From IMG/VR virus record IMGVR_UViG_3300045999_003382, positions 1 through 30,218 of that record: DNA of 30,218 bases; one strand, written 5' to 3'. Shown here piece by piece: positions 3,696 through 22,903 of the stretch; within the stretch, counting starts at the first letter, position 1, and every line of letters begins with the position of its first letter. Both the position numbers and the translations under genes were made by a program. The notes beneath the pieces were generated by a model. The model was not told the origin of the DNA. It did no database searches and saw only the letters and a program-made list of their open reading frames with translations. Source of the DNA: a virus.

Positions 3696-4329
3696 TCAAA
3701 CTATAGAGCGCCGCTCAATCACCGGCACCGTGCAATTGCGCATGGCCGAAGGTCAGGATTGGCCCGAACAGGTCGAAGGCATTGCAGCCGTGGTGAACGA
3801 GCGCACAGATATTGGATGGTTCGAGGAAGAGATAGCGCCGGGTGCATTTGATAACGCCCTGACCAATTCAGATATCCGGGTATTGGGCAACCATGACCCG
3901 AACATAGTGCTGGGCCGCAACACTTCCGGCACGGCGAAGGTATGGGTAAATGAAGCGGGCCAGCTTGCTTACAGCTTCACTCCGGATAAAGAAAACCCTA
4001 CGCACGTTACATGGGTGCGCAGCATTCAGCGTGGCGACATTACCCAAAGCAGCTTTGCCTTTACCATCCAGCGCACCGAATGGATTTACTCAGATAAGTA
4101 TGGTGAATCAGGCACACGGCGCATTCTTGAAGTTCGCGCCCTGTACGATGTAAGCCCCGTGACCTACCCAGCATACGCAGGCACCAGCATTGCCGCCCGC
4201 GACATGGAGGCAATAAAGCAAGAGAGGGCCGCAATTCAAGCCGAATCTGATGAAGCCGCACAGGCTGCGCAGGCCCAGATTGAAGCAAAGAACCAAATTA
4301 AACAAACCCTAATCGACTCAATAAAATGA
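3682..4329 (+). CDS. Prohead maturation protease, HK97 (S78) family
   Basis: This 215-residue serine protease should cleave the N-terminal delta domain of the capsid protein and itself inside the prohead. The core is recognisable: VEGIAAVVNE near the start, an EEIAPGAFDNAL segment, H71 in the GNHD motif, S124 in the TQSSFAF motif, and the LYDVSPVTYPAY segment that closes the fold. These match the His/Ser/acid arrangement of herpesvirus-like phage proteases. The Ala/Gln-rich helical tail after residue 170 is dispensable-looking. It lies between portal and capsid genes, exactly where expected, and joins the capsid gene by ATGA at 4326-4329. Confidence 0.94.
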   Translation: METTNQTIERRSITGTVQLRMAEGQDWPEQVEGIAAVVNERTDIGWFEEEIAPGAFDNALTNSDIRVLGNHDPNIVLGRNTSGTAKVWVNEAGQLAYSFTPDKENPTHVTWVRSIQRGDITQSSFAFTIQRTEWIYSDKYGESGTRRILEVRALYDVSPVTYPAYAGTSIAARDMEAIKQERAAIQAESDEAAQAAQAQIEAKNQIKQTLIDSIK

Positions 4330-7289: not shown

Positions 7290-7727
7290 ATGGCAACTAC
7301 CGGAATAATGAACGGCACGCTGATTGGATTGTATAAATCCGTTTCCAGCACCATGACCAAAATCGCAAACGGTCGCAGTACGTCTGTGGATATTTCCATT
7401 GACATGATTGAAATCACCACCAAAGACAGCGGCGGCTACAAAGAATTTATGCCCGGCGAGAAGGGCGGAACGTTTGATTTTGAAGGACTGCTGGAACAGG
7501 ACGGTTCCGTGGGTGGTTCACTCATAAGTCCCTCAGACCTCGTAACCGATGCGCTGGCAGGAACAGCCATTACCGTGCGTTGGTCCAGTCAGGTGACCGG
7601 CGACACCTATTACGAAAGTTCAGCCTTTATCACCAATGTGAATTTCAGCGCGCCAAACAACGCCGAGGCAACTTTCACCTGCTCTTTGCAGATGACCGGA
7701 ACAATTACACAAGGTACAGTATCTTAA
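7290..7727 (+). CDS. Major tail (tube) protein
   Basis: This 145-residue protein should polymerise into the tail tube. It opens with MATTGIMNGTLIGLYKS, the form seen in TP901-1-like tail tube proteins. It continues with strand-rich segments (TSVDISIDMIEITTKDSGGYKEFMPGEKG) that match the family's 'D.iD.T...s.g.ke...G..' pattern. The C-terminal region, FSAPNNAEATFTCSLQMTG, is the usual closing strand pair. There are no cysteines in key positions or extra Ig domain, so this is a minimal version. It is the only gene in the cluster with this fold and stands directly before the assembly chaperones. Confidence 0.88.
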   Translation: MATTGIMNGTLIGLYKSVSSTMTKIANGRSTSVDISIDMIEITTKDSGGYKEFMPGEKGGTFDFEGLLEQDGSVGGSLISPSDLVTDALAGTAITVRWSSQVTGDTYYESSAFITNVNFSAPNNAEATFTCSLQMTGTITQGTVS

Positions 7728-7737
7728 TCCATTGAAT

Positions 7738-8124
7738 ATGAGCAGCGCACACATCACCATCGCAGGCAAACAGCACACGATTCAGTATCGTCTTGGAACC
7801 ATTTACGCGATCGCCAAACACTTCAAAGCAGAGCCTGCTGGCCTGCTGCAAATCATGCAAAGCACCGATACTGCCGATGTTATCGAATTGTCAGCGGTTG
7901 CGACTTTGTACGGCCTGAAAACAGAGGCGAAGAACAACGGCAAGAAAGCGCCATTCGACAGCGTAGATATGTTGTTGGATGCGGTGGACAGCTTGACCGA
8001 ATTGCGCCCCGCTGTTGAGTGCTTCACCGAGGCGTTTATGAAGTGCCTCGGATTGAACACCGACACCGCGACCGACACCGGAGGCGATGAGGGAAACGCG
8101 CCGGGGGTTCAACAGAACCCCTAA
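7738..8124 (+). CDS. Tail assembly chaperone, upstream (gpG-like) frame
   Basis: This 128-residue protein occupies the gpG position between tail tube and tape measure. I chose ATG 7738 over an in-frame TTG at 7732 because the sequence MSSAHITIAGKQH then begins cleanly. It has a small helical fold with FKAEPAGLLQIMQS and a VDMLLDAVDSLTELRPAVECFTEAFMKCLG segment, and ends in a Thr/Asp/Gly-rich linker as such proteins usually do. Its final codons lie in a hairpin and end with CCC-UAA. The second chaperone frame is open across this point at -1, so a gpG-T fusion of about 242 residues can be proposed. Confidence 0.78.
   Translation: MSSAHITIAGKQHTIQYRLGTIYAIAKHFKAEPAGLLQIMQSTDTADVIELSAVATLYGLKTEAKNNGKKAPFDSVDMLLDAVDSLTELRPAVECFTEAFMKCLGLNTDTATDTGGDEGNAPGVQQNP
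8103..8124 (+). promoter_or_regulatory. Candidate -1 frameshift site with hairpin
   Basis: Immediately before the stop of the first chaperone frame lies a perfect 7-bp hairpin: ggggttc at 8104-8110 pairs with gaacccc at 8115-8121 across an AACA loop. The last sense codon CCC (8119-8121) precedes UAA, and the base before it is also C, so a P-site tRNA could slip back one base onto CCC and continue as CUA in the second frame. That frame is open from 8091. Lambda-type siphoviruses make a gpG-T fusion this way; the precise slip point here is inference. Confidence 0.5.
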
Positions 8125-8144
8125 CGTGGGACTATCTTTTCCAG

Positions 8145-8465
8145 ATGGCTTATGGCCAGATGGGAATGACCGAGGCGGAGTGGCACGAAGCAAGCCCTGA
8201 CTACTGGCACCACCGAGTAAAGGGCTGGCGAAAGCAGCAGTTCGACACGGAGCGCGCCGCGTGGAATCGCACAAGGTGGATGGCAGCAGTACTGCTTCAG
8301 CCGTGGTCGAAAAAAAGCATCAGCCCGCTTGATCTGCTGATATTTCCGGACGAGCTGGAAGACAGACGAAGGGAAACAATCGCAAAAGCGAAGGCCATGC
8401 GAAACGATAAAAGATTTCCGGCAACATTGCCGCCTAAGATAAAAGACGATGAACAAAGCAATTAA
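8145..8465 (+). CDS. Tail assembly chaperone, downstream (gpT-like) frame
   Basis: The annotated ATG at 8145 gives 106 residues, but the frame is open back to 8091. The extra upstream residues (LTWDYLFQ before MAYGQMGMTEAEW) look protein-like, which supports entry by frameshift rather than free initiation. No ribosome site is visible before 8145. The segment AYGQMGMTEAEWHEASPDYW is typical of tail-assembly chaperone C-terminal domains, followed by a basic helical tail (RRRETIAKAKAMRNDKR). It lies between the gpG-like frame and the tape measure side, and it overlaps the next gene by 17 bases. It might be translated both alone and as a fusion. Confidence 0.72.
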   Translation: MAYGQMGMTEAEWHEASPDYWHHRVKGWRKQQFDTERAAWNRTRWMAAVLLQPWSKKSISPLDLLIFPDELEDRRRETIAKAKAMRNDKRFPATLPPKIKDDEQSN

Positions 8466-8853
8466 AGCTGTAGATTACATTCTGCGCAACACGGCAGGCG
8501 TAACAGCCTTGACCGGCCAGCGCATTTACCCCGTGCGCGCAACACAGGGCGCAGCCTACCCCTACATTGCGCACCAGTTTGTGAGCAATCGCCCGGTTCC
8601 TACATTGGACGGGGCCAGCACCTTTGATTTTGGCACGGTGCAAATCAACATTTATGCGGAAACGGCAACCGAAGCACAGGACATAATGGAAGCGGTACGG
8701 GTAGCACTTGACCGCAAAACCCCGGGCACATACAACGGAACGGCGGTTGCGCAGATTGACTACATCGGCGAAAGCCATCTGCCGGAAGATGAGGCGGGCA
8801 ATGATCAGATATACTACATAGTAGCAGAATTTGACGTAAATTACCACCGTTAA
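8449..8853 (+). CDS. Tail completion protein, DUF3168 family
   Basis: This 134-residue protein should cap the tail and join it to the head. It carries the DUF3168 hallmarks: a first helix ending in GVTALTGQRIYPVRA, then AAYPYIAHQFVSN, and a strand FGTVQINIYAETATEAQDIMEAVR, followed by a helix and short strands to the C terminus. Length is normal. What is odd is its place. In most HK97-like genomes this gene precedes the tail tube gene beside gp10, but here it lies between the chaperones and the tape measure. The start ATG 8449 overlaps the chaperone frame by 17 bases. Confidence 0.85.
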   Translation: MNKAIKAVDYILRNTAGVTALTGQRIYPVRATQGAAYPYIAHQFVSNRPVPTLDGASTFDFGTVQINIYAETATEAQDIMEAVRVALDRKTPGTYNGTAVAQIDYIGESHLPEDEAGNDQIYYIVAEFDVNYHR

Positions 8854-8856
8854 TTT

Positions 8857-11085
8857 ATGGCAAAAGGTAAGGGCGGCGGAATAAACATTGTACTGAGCGC
8901 CGATGCGGACGCGCTAAAGAAAGGGCTTGCCGAAGCACGGGCGGCCCTGAGCAAAACCGCTGACATGGCGGAGGCTGATCAAAAGCGATTAAGCACCGCC
9001 GCCGGAAAGTTTACCAGCCAGGCTGCCAATGCGGGCAGCTTGCGACAGCAGCAGCGCGCCTTAACCAACCTTGCCGCCGCCTATGAAGATATGGGCGCGG
9101 CTGGTTCCAAAGCATTCCGGGAAACGCTGAAGCAGGCCGGATCTCTTCGCGACCGGATGGGCGACCTGAACATGGCGATTGAAGCAGGCCATGCAGAGGG
9201 GAAGGTAAAGGTGTTTGGTCAGGCGATGCAGTCCACCATCGGAATTATCGCCGGGGCAGAGGGCGCTATGCAGCTGTTCGGAATGAAAACGGATGATGCC
9301 GCCAAAGTCACCGCCAAGCTGCAATCCCTTATGGCCATGTCGCAGGGTATCGGCGGCATCCTCGCGCTAAAAGATGCAGTCACCGCGCTGTCTGCTAACA
9401 TCACCATTGCAGGCACGGCAACCGCTGCGCTGAACGCGGTTATGGCTATCACTCCATTGGGCTGGCTGGGTATCGGCTTTGCCGCGATTGTGGCAACATT
9501 CGGGAAGTTCACAACCGAAGCGAAGAAGGTAAGCGAGGCGCAAAAAACCATGAACAGCATAAACACGGAAACTACCCGTGTTTTGAAGGAAGAATACGCC
9601 CAGCACCTTTCACTGATTCAAATTGTAAAGAGCGATGTAACAACCAAAGGGCAGAAAGAAGCGGCACTTCGGAAGCTTAAAGAATTGTATCCTGGCTACC
9701 TCGATCAATTGGACATCGAGAAAACCAGCACCAATGACCTTAATGCTGCCATGACTTCGCTCAATGGCACTATTTACAAGCGGGCGCAGGCGCAGGCGGC
9801 CATGACCGAACTTACCAAGATAGCCGGCGAGGAAATGACGCTCATGGCTGACTTGGAAAAAAAACGTGACGGTCGCCTGAAAAAATCACAGGAGATGTCG
9901 GCGCTGGGAATGTCACCCGGTCAGCAAGAAAAGGCGCTGGCTACCTATGATTTGGAAATTGCGGCCATTGACAATTCGATAAAGAAGATTAATGAACGCA
10001 AACAGACCGCGCTGAAGTTCCTTTCTCAGAATCCAGAAACAGCCATAGCGGCAAACAATGTCAGCGCGGCTGAATACGAACAAAAGCGCAAAGATGAACT
10101 GGCCAAAGCTGAACAAAGGCGGTTAAGCGATTTAGAAAAAGTCAGAGCCAAAGCAGCCGAAGAACAGAAAGAGATGCACGAAGCATTGGCTGAAGGCATT
10201 GACCTCCGGCGGACGGGCGCTGATCAGATTAACGAACTTGGCGCATTCTGGCAGCTTTACGGCGCCCAGTCAGAAAAAGCATTTCTTCATGCTATGGCTA
10301 CCGACCGGCAATACTGGGAGGATATGTCTTCGCAGGGCGTGACAAGTTACAAGCAGTACCTTGAAAAATTCAAAAGCCAGGTTATTAGTGTCAAAGAATT
10401 CGGTAACCTCATCGCCCCACCGGAAGCATCCGAAGTGATTAAAACCAATTTCGGCAAAATCACCACACAAATGGAAGGTCTTGCGGTTAAGATGAAATAC
10501 CACATGGCGGTAGGTGGTCAGGCAGTAAATAACGAAATCAATCAATTTACCGCCACAGCTGTGGATGCGTTCGGACAATGGATTGAGGACATGAAATCCG
10601 GCAGCGAATACGCAAGTAAGGATTTTGGAAACGCTATCCTTATGGCCGTGGCGAACTTCATGCAGACATTAGGTCAAGCAATTATCGCGGCAGGCGTAGC
10701 ATCAAAGGCTGTTCAGGATTACTTGTTAGTAAATCCGGTATTGTCCATTGCCGCAGGCGTTGCGCTGGTGGCCGCCTCTGGTTATATGAGAGGCGTAATG
10801 AAGAAAGGCATCGCGGGAAGGCAAGGTCCAGCGCCTTCTGGTGGTTCGGAATCCCCCGGCATACGAATGTTTGCCGAAGGCGGGATCATTTCCGGCCCAA
10901 CCGTGGGCATGATGGGCGAATATCCGGGCGCAAAATCCAACCCGGAGGTAGTCGCACCATTGAATAAATTAAAGGACATGATTGGCGGCGATATGGGCGG
11001 CGGGCAGTTGATGGCACGCATCAGCGGACAGGACTTGCTGATTATGCTTGATCGTGCAGAAACATACAGGGGGAGGGTTCGCTAA
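8857..11085 (+). CDS. Tape measure protein
   Basis: This 742-residue protein should set tail length and be ejected ahead of the DNA. It is Ala/Lys/Glu-rich and mostly helical, with coiled-coil-like stretches near residues 10-110 and 360-440. Hydrophobic segments lie near residues 180-215 (LNAVMAITPLGWLGIGFAAI) and about 590-650 (VNPVLSIAAGVALVAASGYM). A glycine-rich end, MFAEGGIISGPTVGMMGEYP, is the common tape-measure C-terminal motif. It is the longest gene of the tail cluster except for the hub-like and fibre genes and follows the chaperones as expected. Assuming the usual 1.5 angstrom per residue, a tail of roughly 110 nm is implied. It shares one base with the next gene (TAATG). Confidence 0.93.
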   Translation: MAKGKGGGINIVLSADADALKKGLAEARAALSKTADMAEADQKRLSTAAGKFTSQAANAGSLRQQQRALTNLAAAYEDMGAAGSKAFRETLKQAGSLRDRMGDLNMAIEAGHAEGKVKVFGQAMQSTIGIIAGAEGAMQLFGMKTDDAAKVTAKLQSLMAMSQGIGGILALKDAVTALSANITIAGTATAALNAVMAITPLGWLGIGFAAIVATFGKFTTEAKKVSEAQKTMNSINTETTRVLKEEYAQHLSLIQIVKSDVTTKGQKEAALRKLKELYPGYLDQLDIEKTSTNDLNAAMTSLNGTIYKRAQAQAAMTELTKIAGEEMTLMADLEKKRDGRLKKSQEMSALGMSPGQQEKALATYDLEIAAIDNSIKKINERKQTALKFLSQNPETAIAANNVSAAEYEQKRKDELAKAEQRRLSDLEKVRAKAAEEQKEMHEALAEGIDLRRTGADQINELGAFWQLYGAQSEKAFLHAMATDRQYWEDMSSQGVTSYKQYLEKFKSQVISVKEFGNLIAPPEASEVIKTNFGKITTQMEGLAVKMKYHMAVGGQAVNNEINQFTATAVDAFGQWIEDMKSGSEYASKDFGNAILMAVANFMQTLGQAIIAAGVASKAVQDYLLVNPVLSIAAGVALVAASGYMRGVMKKGIAGRQGPAPSGGSESPGIRMFAEGGIISGPTVGMMGEYPGAKSNPEVVAPLNKLKDMIGGDMGGGQLMARISGQDLLIMLDRAETYRGRVR

Positions 11086-21030: not shown

Positions 21031-21330
21031 ATGAACACAATCAAAATCAAACAGAAGGTCGAAACCTTCTCAGAAATTCAGCTGCCGTATTTCGGCAAAA
21101 CAGACACCGCCTACATCTGCATTACTGGTAAAGATAAGTATGGGTATTTGCAAGGTATGACTGTTTGGCCAAAATGGCCAAAAATTAGTACGGCAATTCT
21201 CGAAATACTTTTCCATGAATCAAAACCTTGCAGCCCCGCTGAATTTGCGGCTGCTTTTGAAGAAGCGCACCACAACCTCAGGGCGGAATACGAAGCAATC
21301 ATTGAAGCGCAGGAGGGCGAAAGAAAATGA
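21031..21330 (+). CDS. Hypothetical early protein
   Basis: This 99-residue protein begins MNTIKIKQKVETFSEIQLPYF with two amphipathic strands, has a central GKDKYGYLQGMTVWPKWPK segment encoded by a short tandem 9-bp repeat (tggccaaaa twice near 21166-21184), and ends in a charged helix (AAAFEEAHHNLRAEYEAIIE). I recognise no family. It lies in a run of small early genes and couples to the next by ATGA at 21327-21330. Confidence 0.65.
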   Translation: MNTIKIKQKVETFSEIQLPYFGKTDTAYICITGKDKYGYLQGMTVWPKWPKISTAILEILFHESKPCSPAEFAAAFEEAHHNLRAEYEAIIEAQEGERK

Positions 21331-21707
21331 ATTGGTACGTAGGACAGCCGGTGTATTGCCTGCAAAATGGGGAAGGGGTAATAATGGATACCAAAAATAA
21401 TGCACCATATCCAATCAGGGTAAAATTTAATGGATGCGAATCAACCTACACTGAACTTGGAAAATTGTTTCTAAATAACGAGACCCCCATGCTTTATCCT
21501 GAAAAGCCCGAAATCATCCTTCCCAAGTGGCAGCCGAAACCGGGTCAGTGGTGTTGGTTTTGGAATGAAAAACATACTATTGCAACACTTGCAAAATTTA
21601 TGGAAATGGATAAGCATCTGTATTTAGATATTCGTCGTGTGAGCTGGGATTGTTGCGCCCCATTCGTCGGCGAACTGCCGCCACATCTGAAGGAGGTGCG
21701 GCCATGA
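21327..21707 (+). CDS. Hypothetical early protein, strand-rich
   Basis: This 126-residue protein opens with MNWYVGQPVYCLQNGEGVIMD, then YPIRVKFNGCESTYTELG, a pattern like small phage proteins with an SH3-like first domain ('vgd.VyC...G.G.V....yPi.V.F'). A second part follows after a proline-rich linker (PKPGQWCWFWNEKHTIATL). No catalytic motif is visible. Its Trp, Cys and Tyr content suggests a folded two-domain protein. It couples to neighbours by ATGA on both sides. Confidence 0.7.
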   Translation: MNWYVGQPVYCLQNGEGVIMDTKNNAPYPIRVKFNGCESTYTELGKLFLNNETPMLYPEKPEIILPKWQPKPGQWCWFWNEKHTIATLAKFMEMDKHLYLDIRRVSWDCCAPFVGELPPHLKEVRP

Positions 21708-21979
21708 AGCACACGAAAGAACCTTGGGTTTTGCGCGGAGTGAACATCGACAGCGATAACAGCGATGTGTCGGTGGGCTGCTGCTACAAAACGCACAGCG
21801 TAGGTCAAACTCCGAAATCCGCACTCGCAAATGCAAAGCGCATCATTTCCTGTGTAAACGCCTGCGCAGGAATGGAAGAACCTGCTATGGAAATCCCAGC
21901 ACTTAAGGCTGAAGTTGAAAGGCTGCGCGACGCATTGAGCAAGGCGCACGATATAATTGCGAAAGGAGGAAAGCAATGA
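21704..21979 (+). CDS. Small phage protein with NAR-type helix (HTPGPW-like)
   Basis: The 91-residue protein begins MKHTKEPWVLRGVNIDSD and has the ANAKRIISCVNACAGME segment. This is the plan of common phage proteins that start 'HTPGPW' and contain 'aNA.lIaaaPdLl'. A Glu/Lys-rich coiled-coil end follows (ALKAEVERLRDALSKAHD). Function is unknown. I chose ATG 21704, which overlaps the previous stop by ATGA and has aaggagg at 21690-21696; the frame extends upstream to 21650 but without support. Confidence 0.75.
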   Translation: MKHTKEPWVLRGVNIDSDNSDVSVGCCYKTHSVGQTPKSALANAKRIISCVNACAGMEEPAMEIPALKAEVERLRDALSKAHDIIAKGGKQ

Positions 21980-22269
21980 AGAGTTTTTTAAAATGGATTG
22001 GCAATGAGCGCAAATCTGATAAAAAAGGATTGCTCATTGGATTAGTCACAAAACGCGATGTTTACGAATTAGGGCGAAAAGTTGAATCCTATGATGAACT
22101 CATTAAGTCATTGCGCTCAATCATTGCATTGCAGGGCTTAACAAATCGACAAAGAGAAGTAGCTTTTCACATGTCGCGAAAAATTGCCATTGATGCAATA
22201 CGTCATGCTGAAGAATTGCAAGTAAATGTAAATCGAATTTTAAAGGAAGAGGAGGGAGGCAAGTCATGA
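21976..22269 (+). CDS. Small basic helical protein, function unknown
   Basis: This 97-residue protein is lysine- and leucine-rich. The first part (MKSFLKWIGNERKSDKKG) is basic and the rest is helical (ESYDELIKSLRSIIALQG, then RQREVAFHMSRKIAIDAIRH). Base composition here is visibly more AT-rich than in the flanking genes, which hints at separate ancestry. Overlaps by ATGA join it to both sides. Confidence 0.65.
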   Translation: MKSFLKWIGNERKSDKKGLLIGLVTKRDVYELGRKVESYDELIKSLRSIIALQGLTNRQREVAFHMSRKIAIDAIRHAEELQVNVNRILKEEEGGKS

Positions 22270-22517
22270 TTTACACATTAATATGCGTGGCCATAGTGAG
22301 CGCGTGCTTCGGAGTGATTTTCGGCGAAGATTTTAAGCGGAAGCTGTGCCGCCATCGCGGCGGGCGGATGCCAATTGGAACACCGGTTAGGTATCGCGGG
22401 AAAGACACGACCGTAATGGCCTACCGATGGAAACGAAACAACTGGTACTACCTGCTGCACGGCGAATATGGCTGGAAACCAGGGTGGATGGTCAAAGAAA
22501 GGAGGGCTGAGGGATGA
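22266..22517 (+). CDS. Small membrane-anchored protein
   Basis: This 83-residue protein has one N-terminal hydrophobic segment (IYTLICVAIVSACFGVIFG, residues 2-20), then a basic cytosolic-looking segment and a strand-rich tail with YRGKDTTVMAYRWKRNN and a YGWKPGWMV motif. Nothing says whether it is secreted or inner-membrane; the anchor looks non-cleaved. It overlaps both neighbours by ATGA. It might act in early takeover or superinfection exclusion, which is a guess from topology only. Confidence 0.65.
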   Translation: MIYTLICVAIVSACFGVIFGEDFKRKLCRHRGGRMPIGTPVRYRGKDTTVMAYRWKRNNWYYLLHGEYGWKPGWMVKERRAEG

Positions 22518-22903
22518 ACCTTCGGAGATTCGATTGCCAAGAAGCCGAAGCAATACGTCGCGAGGTGGCTAACGTGTGGCGCGTGGATATGGATCTGCAC
22601 ACTACGCGGCGCAGGGACAATGACACGGCGCAGGCACGCATGACATACATCTACCTGCTTAGAAAGTACATCGGCGGCAGTTACGTTGAATTGGCTCACC
22701 ATTGCCGGCGCGATCATTCGACCATGATAAACGCCATTAACGTGGTCGAGCGCGATGTATTGTTCAACAAGCCATTTGCCCGGCGGCTGGAAAAGCTGGA
22801 GCAATTCAGCGAGGCGATTGTGAGTGGTTTTTATTCAGCGGCTGGCATGATGACCGTTGCCTTTGGGAAGAAAACAGGTAACGAAGTGGAGGGCTGGTTA
22901 TGA
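22514..22903 (+). CDS. DnaA domain IV-like DNA-binding protein
   Basis: This 129-residue protein contains a segment that matches the DNA-binding domain of bacterial DnaA. ARMTYIYLLRKYIGGSYVEL is followed by a helix-turn-helix with the signature RRDHSTMINAI (65-75), equivalent to the 'RDHSTVLHAI' DnaA signature. There is no AAA+ ATPase domain, so it cannot remodel origin DNA alone. It could recognise DnaA boxes or an equivalent phage site, recruiting or blocking host initiation. It precedes the SSB-like, nuclease and helicase genes and overlaps neighbours by ATGA. TrpR-type repressors share part of this fold, so a regulatory role remains possible. Confidence 0.76.
   Translation: MNLRRFDCQEAEAIRREVANVWRVDMDLHTTRRRDNDTAQARMTYIYLLRKYIGGSYVELAHHCRRDHSTMINAINVVERDVLFNKPFARRLEKLEQFSEAIVSGFYSAAGMMTVAFGKKTGNEVEGWL

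Follow-up and report, generated by a model that had tools for sequence, protein, structure and literature searches.

A predicted programmed −1 ribosomal frameshift at GGGAAAC in the tail assembly chaperone gene pair of an IMG/VR virus

The analysed stretch of DNA, hereafter the window, comprises 30,218 nucleotides of IMG/VR virus record IMGVR_UViG_3300045999_003382. It contains a siphovirus tail module with genes in the order tail tube, G, T, tail terminator, tape measure, and the G and T frames overlap. The features considered here, including those predicted for the overlap, are as follows.

7290–7727, plus strand: major tail (tube) protein (PHROG 1407, E 8.8e-23; Pfam Phage_tail_2)
7738–8124, plus strand: G analogue, zero-frame tail assembly chaperone of 128 aa, an ORF located after the tail tube gene and before that of the tape measure
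8080–8084, plus strand: Shine-Dalgarno-like GGAGG, candidate second stimulator, 6 nt upstream of the heptamer
8091–8097, plus strand: slippery heptamer G_GGA_AAC, read directly and conserved in relatives, with a predicted −1 shift to GGG AAA
8098–8103, plus strand: spacer GCGCCG, 6 nt from the heptamer to the 7-bp stem (5 nt if an extra G8103–U8122 pair is counted)
8104–8121, plus strand: putative stimulatory hairpin GGGGTTC / AACA loop / GAACCCC, proposed from its fold score, its invariance in the close clade and recurring hairpins in relatives
8091–8465, plus strand: T frame (−1), tail chaperone T domain, stop at 8463–8465
7738–8465, plus strand: predicted G-T fusion of 242 aa, by conceptual translation
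8449–8853, plus strand: tail terminator (Tail_completion_gp17), between T and the tape measure gene (PHROG 347; Pfam PF11367)
8857–11085, plus strand: tape measure protein (PHROG 25337, E 8.7e-16)

The G frame, for which TTG 7732 is an alternative start, ends with the last sense codon CCC followed by the stop TAA at 8122–8124. The T frame stands in the −1 relation to G and is open from 8091, immediately 3′ of TGA 8088–8090. Reading of the sequence places the earliest ATG, GTG or TTG in this frame at ATG 8145, which bears out what the preliminary description had said of both the opening and the first ATG; the preceding stretch from 8091 reads GKRAGGSTEPLTWDYLFQ. The pair has the lambda-type arrangement, with two overlapping frames located 3′ of the tail tube gene and 5′ of the tape measure gene.

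ATG 8145 encodes T residue 19, within the first predicted helix (T residues 13–23), and the conserved LTW motif at 8121–8129 lies 5′ of it. In the relative L106 the first start occurs 171 nt into the T frame. The T frame of another relative, L225 (1486–1836), is devoid of ATG, GTG and TTG, and its T domain is apparently reachable by frameshifting only. Judged by sequence only, T is not independently initiated: no start precedes 8145, 8145 falls inside a helix, and L225 is startless. A check of relatives for independent starts or stop codons in the 8091–8144 frame did not refute the fusion. We predict that the T domain is made only within the G-T fusion.

The heptamer GGGAAAC, which the preliminary description had overlooked, is situated exactly at the opening of the T frame. 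The zero-frame codons at this point are GAG 8089, GGA 8092 and AAC 8095, which sets the heptamer in the X_XXY_YYZ register. By itself the motif is not rare, with 10 copies on both strands of the window against 5 expected, and hence the case for the copy at 8091–8097 is made by its position, register and conservation. The preliminary description had held that the placement differs from that in lambda, whereas GGGAAAC is an X_XXY_YYZ site in the usual layout. Among all heptamers measured, G_GG.A_AA.C has low efficiency in E. coli, although IS elements presumed to frameshift often contain it (PMC4066793). A low-efficiency site combined with a stable hairpin would fit a system that needs little fusion protein.

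The heptamer is followed by a perfect 7-bp stem, 8104–8110 pairing with 8115–8121, which adjoins TAA 8122–8124; the hairpin and its end at the last sense codon had been described exactly. The spacer of 6 nt falls within the range of about 5–9 nt 3′ of the heptamer that is considered for an RNA structure. The region 8098–8150 has a folding energy of −21.3 kcal/mol (z −3.1), and 1 of 200 shuffles was equally good. Since the stem begins 6 nt after GGGAAAC, the hairpin is located downstream of the slip codon and not around it; the inclusion of the slip codon in the hairpin, earlier singled out as unusual, no longer applies. The order of slippery site, spacer and putative stimulator is the usual one for −1 frameshifting.

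Close relatives were represented by 11 IMG/VR contigs with T proteins 88–100% identical, yielding 10 distinct junction sequences including the window. No column of GGGAAAC is variable in these ten sequences. Variation in the overlap 8098–8121 is confined to positions outside the stem (7 of 10 columns vs. 0 of 14 in the stem; Fisher p = 3.5e-4, an indicative value, as alignment columns are not independent and both frames are coding). The flanks vary as well, at 13 of 28 columns upstream (8061–8088) and 6 of 20 downstream (8125–8144). Judged by these sequences, the stem in the close clade is not a product of chance. As the stem never varies in this clade, it offers no compensatory changes in support of base pairing; distant relatives with GGGAAAC have other hairpins.

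For a wider comparison, searches by T alignments and by the neighboring tail terminator yielded 255 sequences, the window among them. The same contig is often repeated in this set, which at 75% T identity forms 53 clusters, of which 51 were counted as −1 G/T pairs. One of the latter, L105, was assigned manually: its G frame is broken at about 1958, ahead of an otherwise normal GGGAAAC junction, which may reflect a contig error or a broken gene. A search of genome_contigs for relatives found none.

An in-register X_XXY_YYZ heptamer was observed in the overlap of 50 of the 51 clusters of T homologues with the −1 relation. Codon-order shuffles of the same overlaps averaged 12.7 such clusters and never exceeded 22 in 2000 trials. 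The heptamers are GGGAAAG, GGGAAAC, A-runs and U7. Heptamers other than homopolymers occupy this register in 19 clusters, and each of the other two registers in one cluster. Homopolymer runs, mostly A9, underlie 31 of the 50 clusters; fusions at such runs could instead arise by transcriptional slippage, which does not apply to GGGAAAC. Many relatives (L012, L014, L018–L080) have A9 slip runs in their overlaps, from which transcriptional slippage could equally yield a fusion. The sole −1 pair with no X_XXY_YYZ heptamer in its overlap is L081 (2489–2525), which has CTTGGGGGAGGGACAGG in its place. The only record of the T family with an intact G that does not stand in the −1 relation is L013 (Cellulophaga phage phi39:1, the same genome as L192), where the relation is +1/−2 at a run of eight A (3947–3960), whereas its relatives have nine A and the −1 relation; the eight-A junction reflects either a miscalled homopolymer or a real −2/+1 shift.

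GGGAAAC itself is also found in L105, L106–L108, L211 and L252. It is retained in register in L105, whose T is 68% identical to that of the window, and in L106–L108 (about 47–50%). The latter three retain GAGGGAAAC, have a different hairpin, GCCGG...CCGGC, at a spacer of 8, and end in TCCTGA. In 14 of 17 clusters with GGGAAA-type heptamers the best hairpin is located 5–8 nt downstream, and the hairpin sequences differ. Over 19 non-homopolymer junctions the Stouffer z for hairpins is −4.6, which is moderate evidence, as spacers of 4–11 were allowed and 30 shuffles were made for each junction. The L126 and L148 groups (64 loci) have GGGAAAG directly 5′ of the zero-frame stop TAA, a layout like that of Burkholderia phage KL1, and a hairpin GCCAAGGGCG...CTTGGC 5 nt downstream of GGGAAAG.

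Taken together, the sequence data make it very likely that the pair is expressed by an ordinary programmed −1 frameshift of the kind known from lambda G/G-T, with the slip at GGGAAAC and the hairpin downstream, and a 242-residue G-T fusion very probably exists. Most ribosomes would finish G (7738–8124) and terminate at UAA. Some, while GGA and AAC (8092–8097) are occupied by tRNA-Gly and tRNA-Asn, would encounter the hairpin 8104–8121 at the mRNA entrance and pause, and both tRNAs would move back by one base to pair with GGG and AAA. Reading would resume at CGC 8097–8099 and continue through the T domain, giving the 242-residue chaperone. As in lambda, the tape measure protein would then be coated by G and G-T, which would recruit the tail tube protein. 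The predicted junction lies between ...GGDEGN and RAGGSTEPLTW..., within the peptide CLGLNTDTATDTGGDEGNR.

The preliminary description had already proposed that a −1 frameshift, with the hairpin involved, fuses the two chaperone frames into about 242 residues. That part stands, whereas its slip site, CCC-UAA, and its junction peptide, NPLTWDYLF, do not; the counterpart of the junction peptide for a CCC slip contains QQNPLTWDYLF. Re-pairing by one base is possible at C CCC just 5′ of UAA 8122–8124, and all ten close sequences have CCCCTAA unchanged. However, CCCC belongs to the 3′ arm of the stem, which explains its invariance. The 3′ arm of a hairpin can get to the P site only after the hairpin has been unwound, and therefore this hairpin could not stimulate a slip within that arm. 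Moreover, L105–L108 end in GCTAA or TCCTGA, having lost CCC-UAA, yet keep GGGAAAC in register, and an N-NNN-stop arrangement is found in just 2 of 51 clusters. A slip at CCC is thus highly improbable. Even less credit can be given to the run GGGGG at 8103–8107, suggested as a second slip option and requiring a partly unwound hairpin: the run is present in the window, but it mostly coincides with the 5′ arm of the stem, is changed to AGGGG in L006 and L007, and is missing from L105–L108. Slightly more plausible than either, though still very improbable, is that no frameshift occurs and that termination at 8124 is followed by separate translation of T, either through re-initiation or from a new start at ATG 8145. 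This ATG is located 20 nt 3′ of the G stop, and termination-coupled starts are common in phages. Against separate translation stand the LTW motif and the beginning of the first predicted helix, both preceding ATG 8145, as well as the late start in L106 and the lack of any in L225; nor would it explain why 50 of 51 clusters have an in-register heptamer.

It is also conceivable, if unlikely, that the heptamer is driven mainly by the internal Shine-Dalgarno sequence GGAGG at 8080–8084 and not by the hairpin. GGAGG lies 6 nt 5′ of the heptamer, it is predicted to pair more strongly than 98% of randomly chosen positions in the window, and SD-like sequences occur at similar spacing in L105 and L106. 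On the other hand, position 8084 varies in the close sequences while the hairpin stem is invariant, and on average the gene starts of the window do not favor SD sequences. An upstream SD stimulator was rejected as a general feature of the family, where no such signal is seen (median rank 0.43). The host is probably a member of Bacteroidota, given this lack of average SD preference and the named phages matched by the T and tape measure proteins, among them phages of Cellulophaga, Flavobacterium and Bacteroides. Ribosomes of Bacteroidia occlude the anti-SD yet retain the prfB +1 shift (PMC8710568), and GGAGG may therefore have a role here. We assign a similarly low probability to the combined action of GGAGG and the hairpin on the low-efficiency GGGAAAC in a Bacteroidota-type host with the anti-Shine-Dalgarno normally occluded at initiation. 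If true, this would mean that the anti-Shine-Dalgarno acts during elongation in a −1 shift, as is thought for the prfB +1 shift. In the right half of the window (21327–22900 and 27057), strong GGAGG-like sequences were observed at several gene starts. Most structural genes of the window have starts without GGAGG-like sequences, and many of the GGAGG-like ones fall within the last part of the gene before them.

The assignment of the two proteins to the tail assembly chaperones relies, for the sequences of the window, on relatives and on the predicted fold. G of the window has no PHROG match and no convincing Pfam family, and sequence and fold searches of PDB with G gave nothing convincing. Its AlphaFold model (pLDDT 88.6) has BFVD fold matches to viral tail assembly chaperones with E about 1e-3 (4.7e-4 for one of them). 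Of 36 G homologues, 5 match PHROG 183 'tail chaperone protein', and matches to PHROG 2115 'tail protein' were also obtained with homologues of G. T of the window matches PHROG 16333 (E 9.2e-13), a group of unknown function, and is below the threshold of Phage_TAC_6. Among the T homologues scanned, all 36 match PHROG 16333 and 4 of 36 match Pfam Phage_TAC_6 (PF09550). Hence, G and T can be placed in the tail assembly chaperone family or fold. The structure match A0A0K1LMC7 (247 aa) was checked as a candidate fusion of Caulobacter phage Seuss, and the lengths do not fit; the Seuss record annotates a slippage tape-measure chaperone.

The use of GGGAAAC for G-T frameshifting has been reported before. 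A review describes lambda G/G-T and lists G_GGA_AAC for haloarchaeal virus HCTV-1 (PMC5009743), and the site was predicted in gp18/gp19 of KL1, with a stem-loop downstream and a tail gene before the tape measure (PMC3483164); it is also given for the pre-tape-measure chaperone of Caulobacter phage Colossus (PMC3556154). In the literature collection searched, no paper dealt with tail chaperone frameshifting in phages of Bacteroides or Flavobacterium. The window shares with lambda (G_GGA_AAG) the overlapping chaperone frames before the tape measure, the −1 relation, a GGGAAA-type heptamer and the predicted G+T fusion. It differs in that the heptamer ends in C and not G, a clear hairpin follows, and a tail terminator gene separates T from the tape measure gene; family searches detected no similarity to lambda proteins. 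KL1 is alike in its predicted GGGAAAC and predicted downstream stem-loop and in a tail gene between G-T and the tape measure, the latter being true also of HK97 and SPP1. In contrast, the KL1 heptamer is directly 5′ of the zero-frame stop, while in the window 34 nt extend from the start of the heptamer to the end of the stop codon. Colossus and HCTV-1 have the same site in the same gene pair but different hosts, and are likened here by slip site. No new mechanism is revealed; rather, the annotation of G and T (7738–8465) is corrected to one pair with a predicted frameshift at 8091–8097, and 53 metagenomic tail chaperone clusters (75% T identity) are added to a known conserved frameshift. Within this one family, GGGAAAC, GGGAAAG and A-run slip sites interchange.
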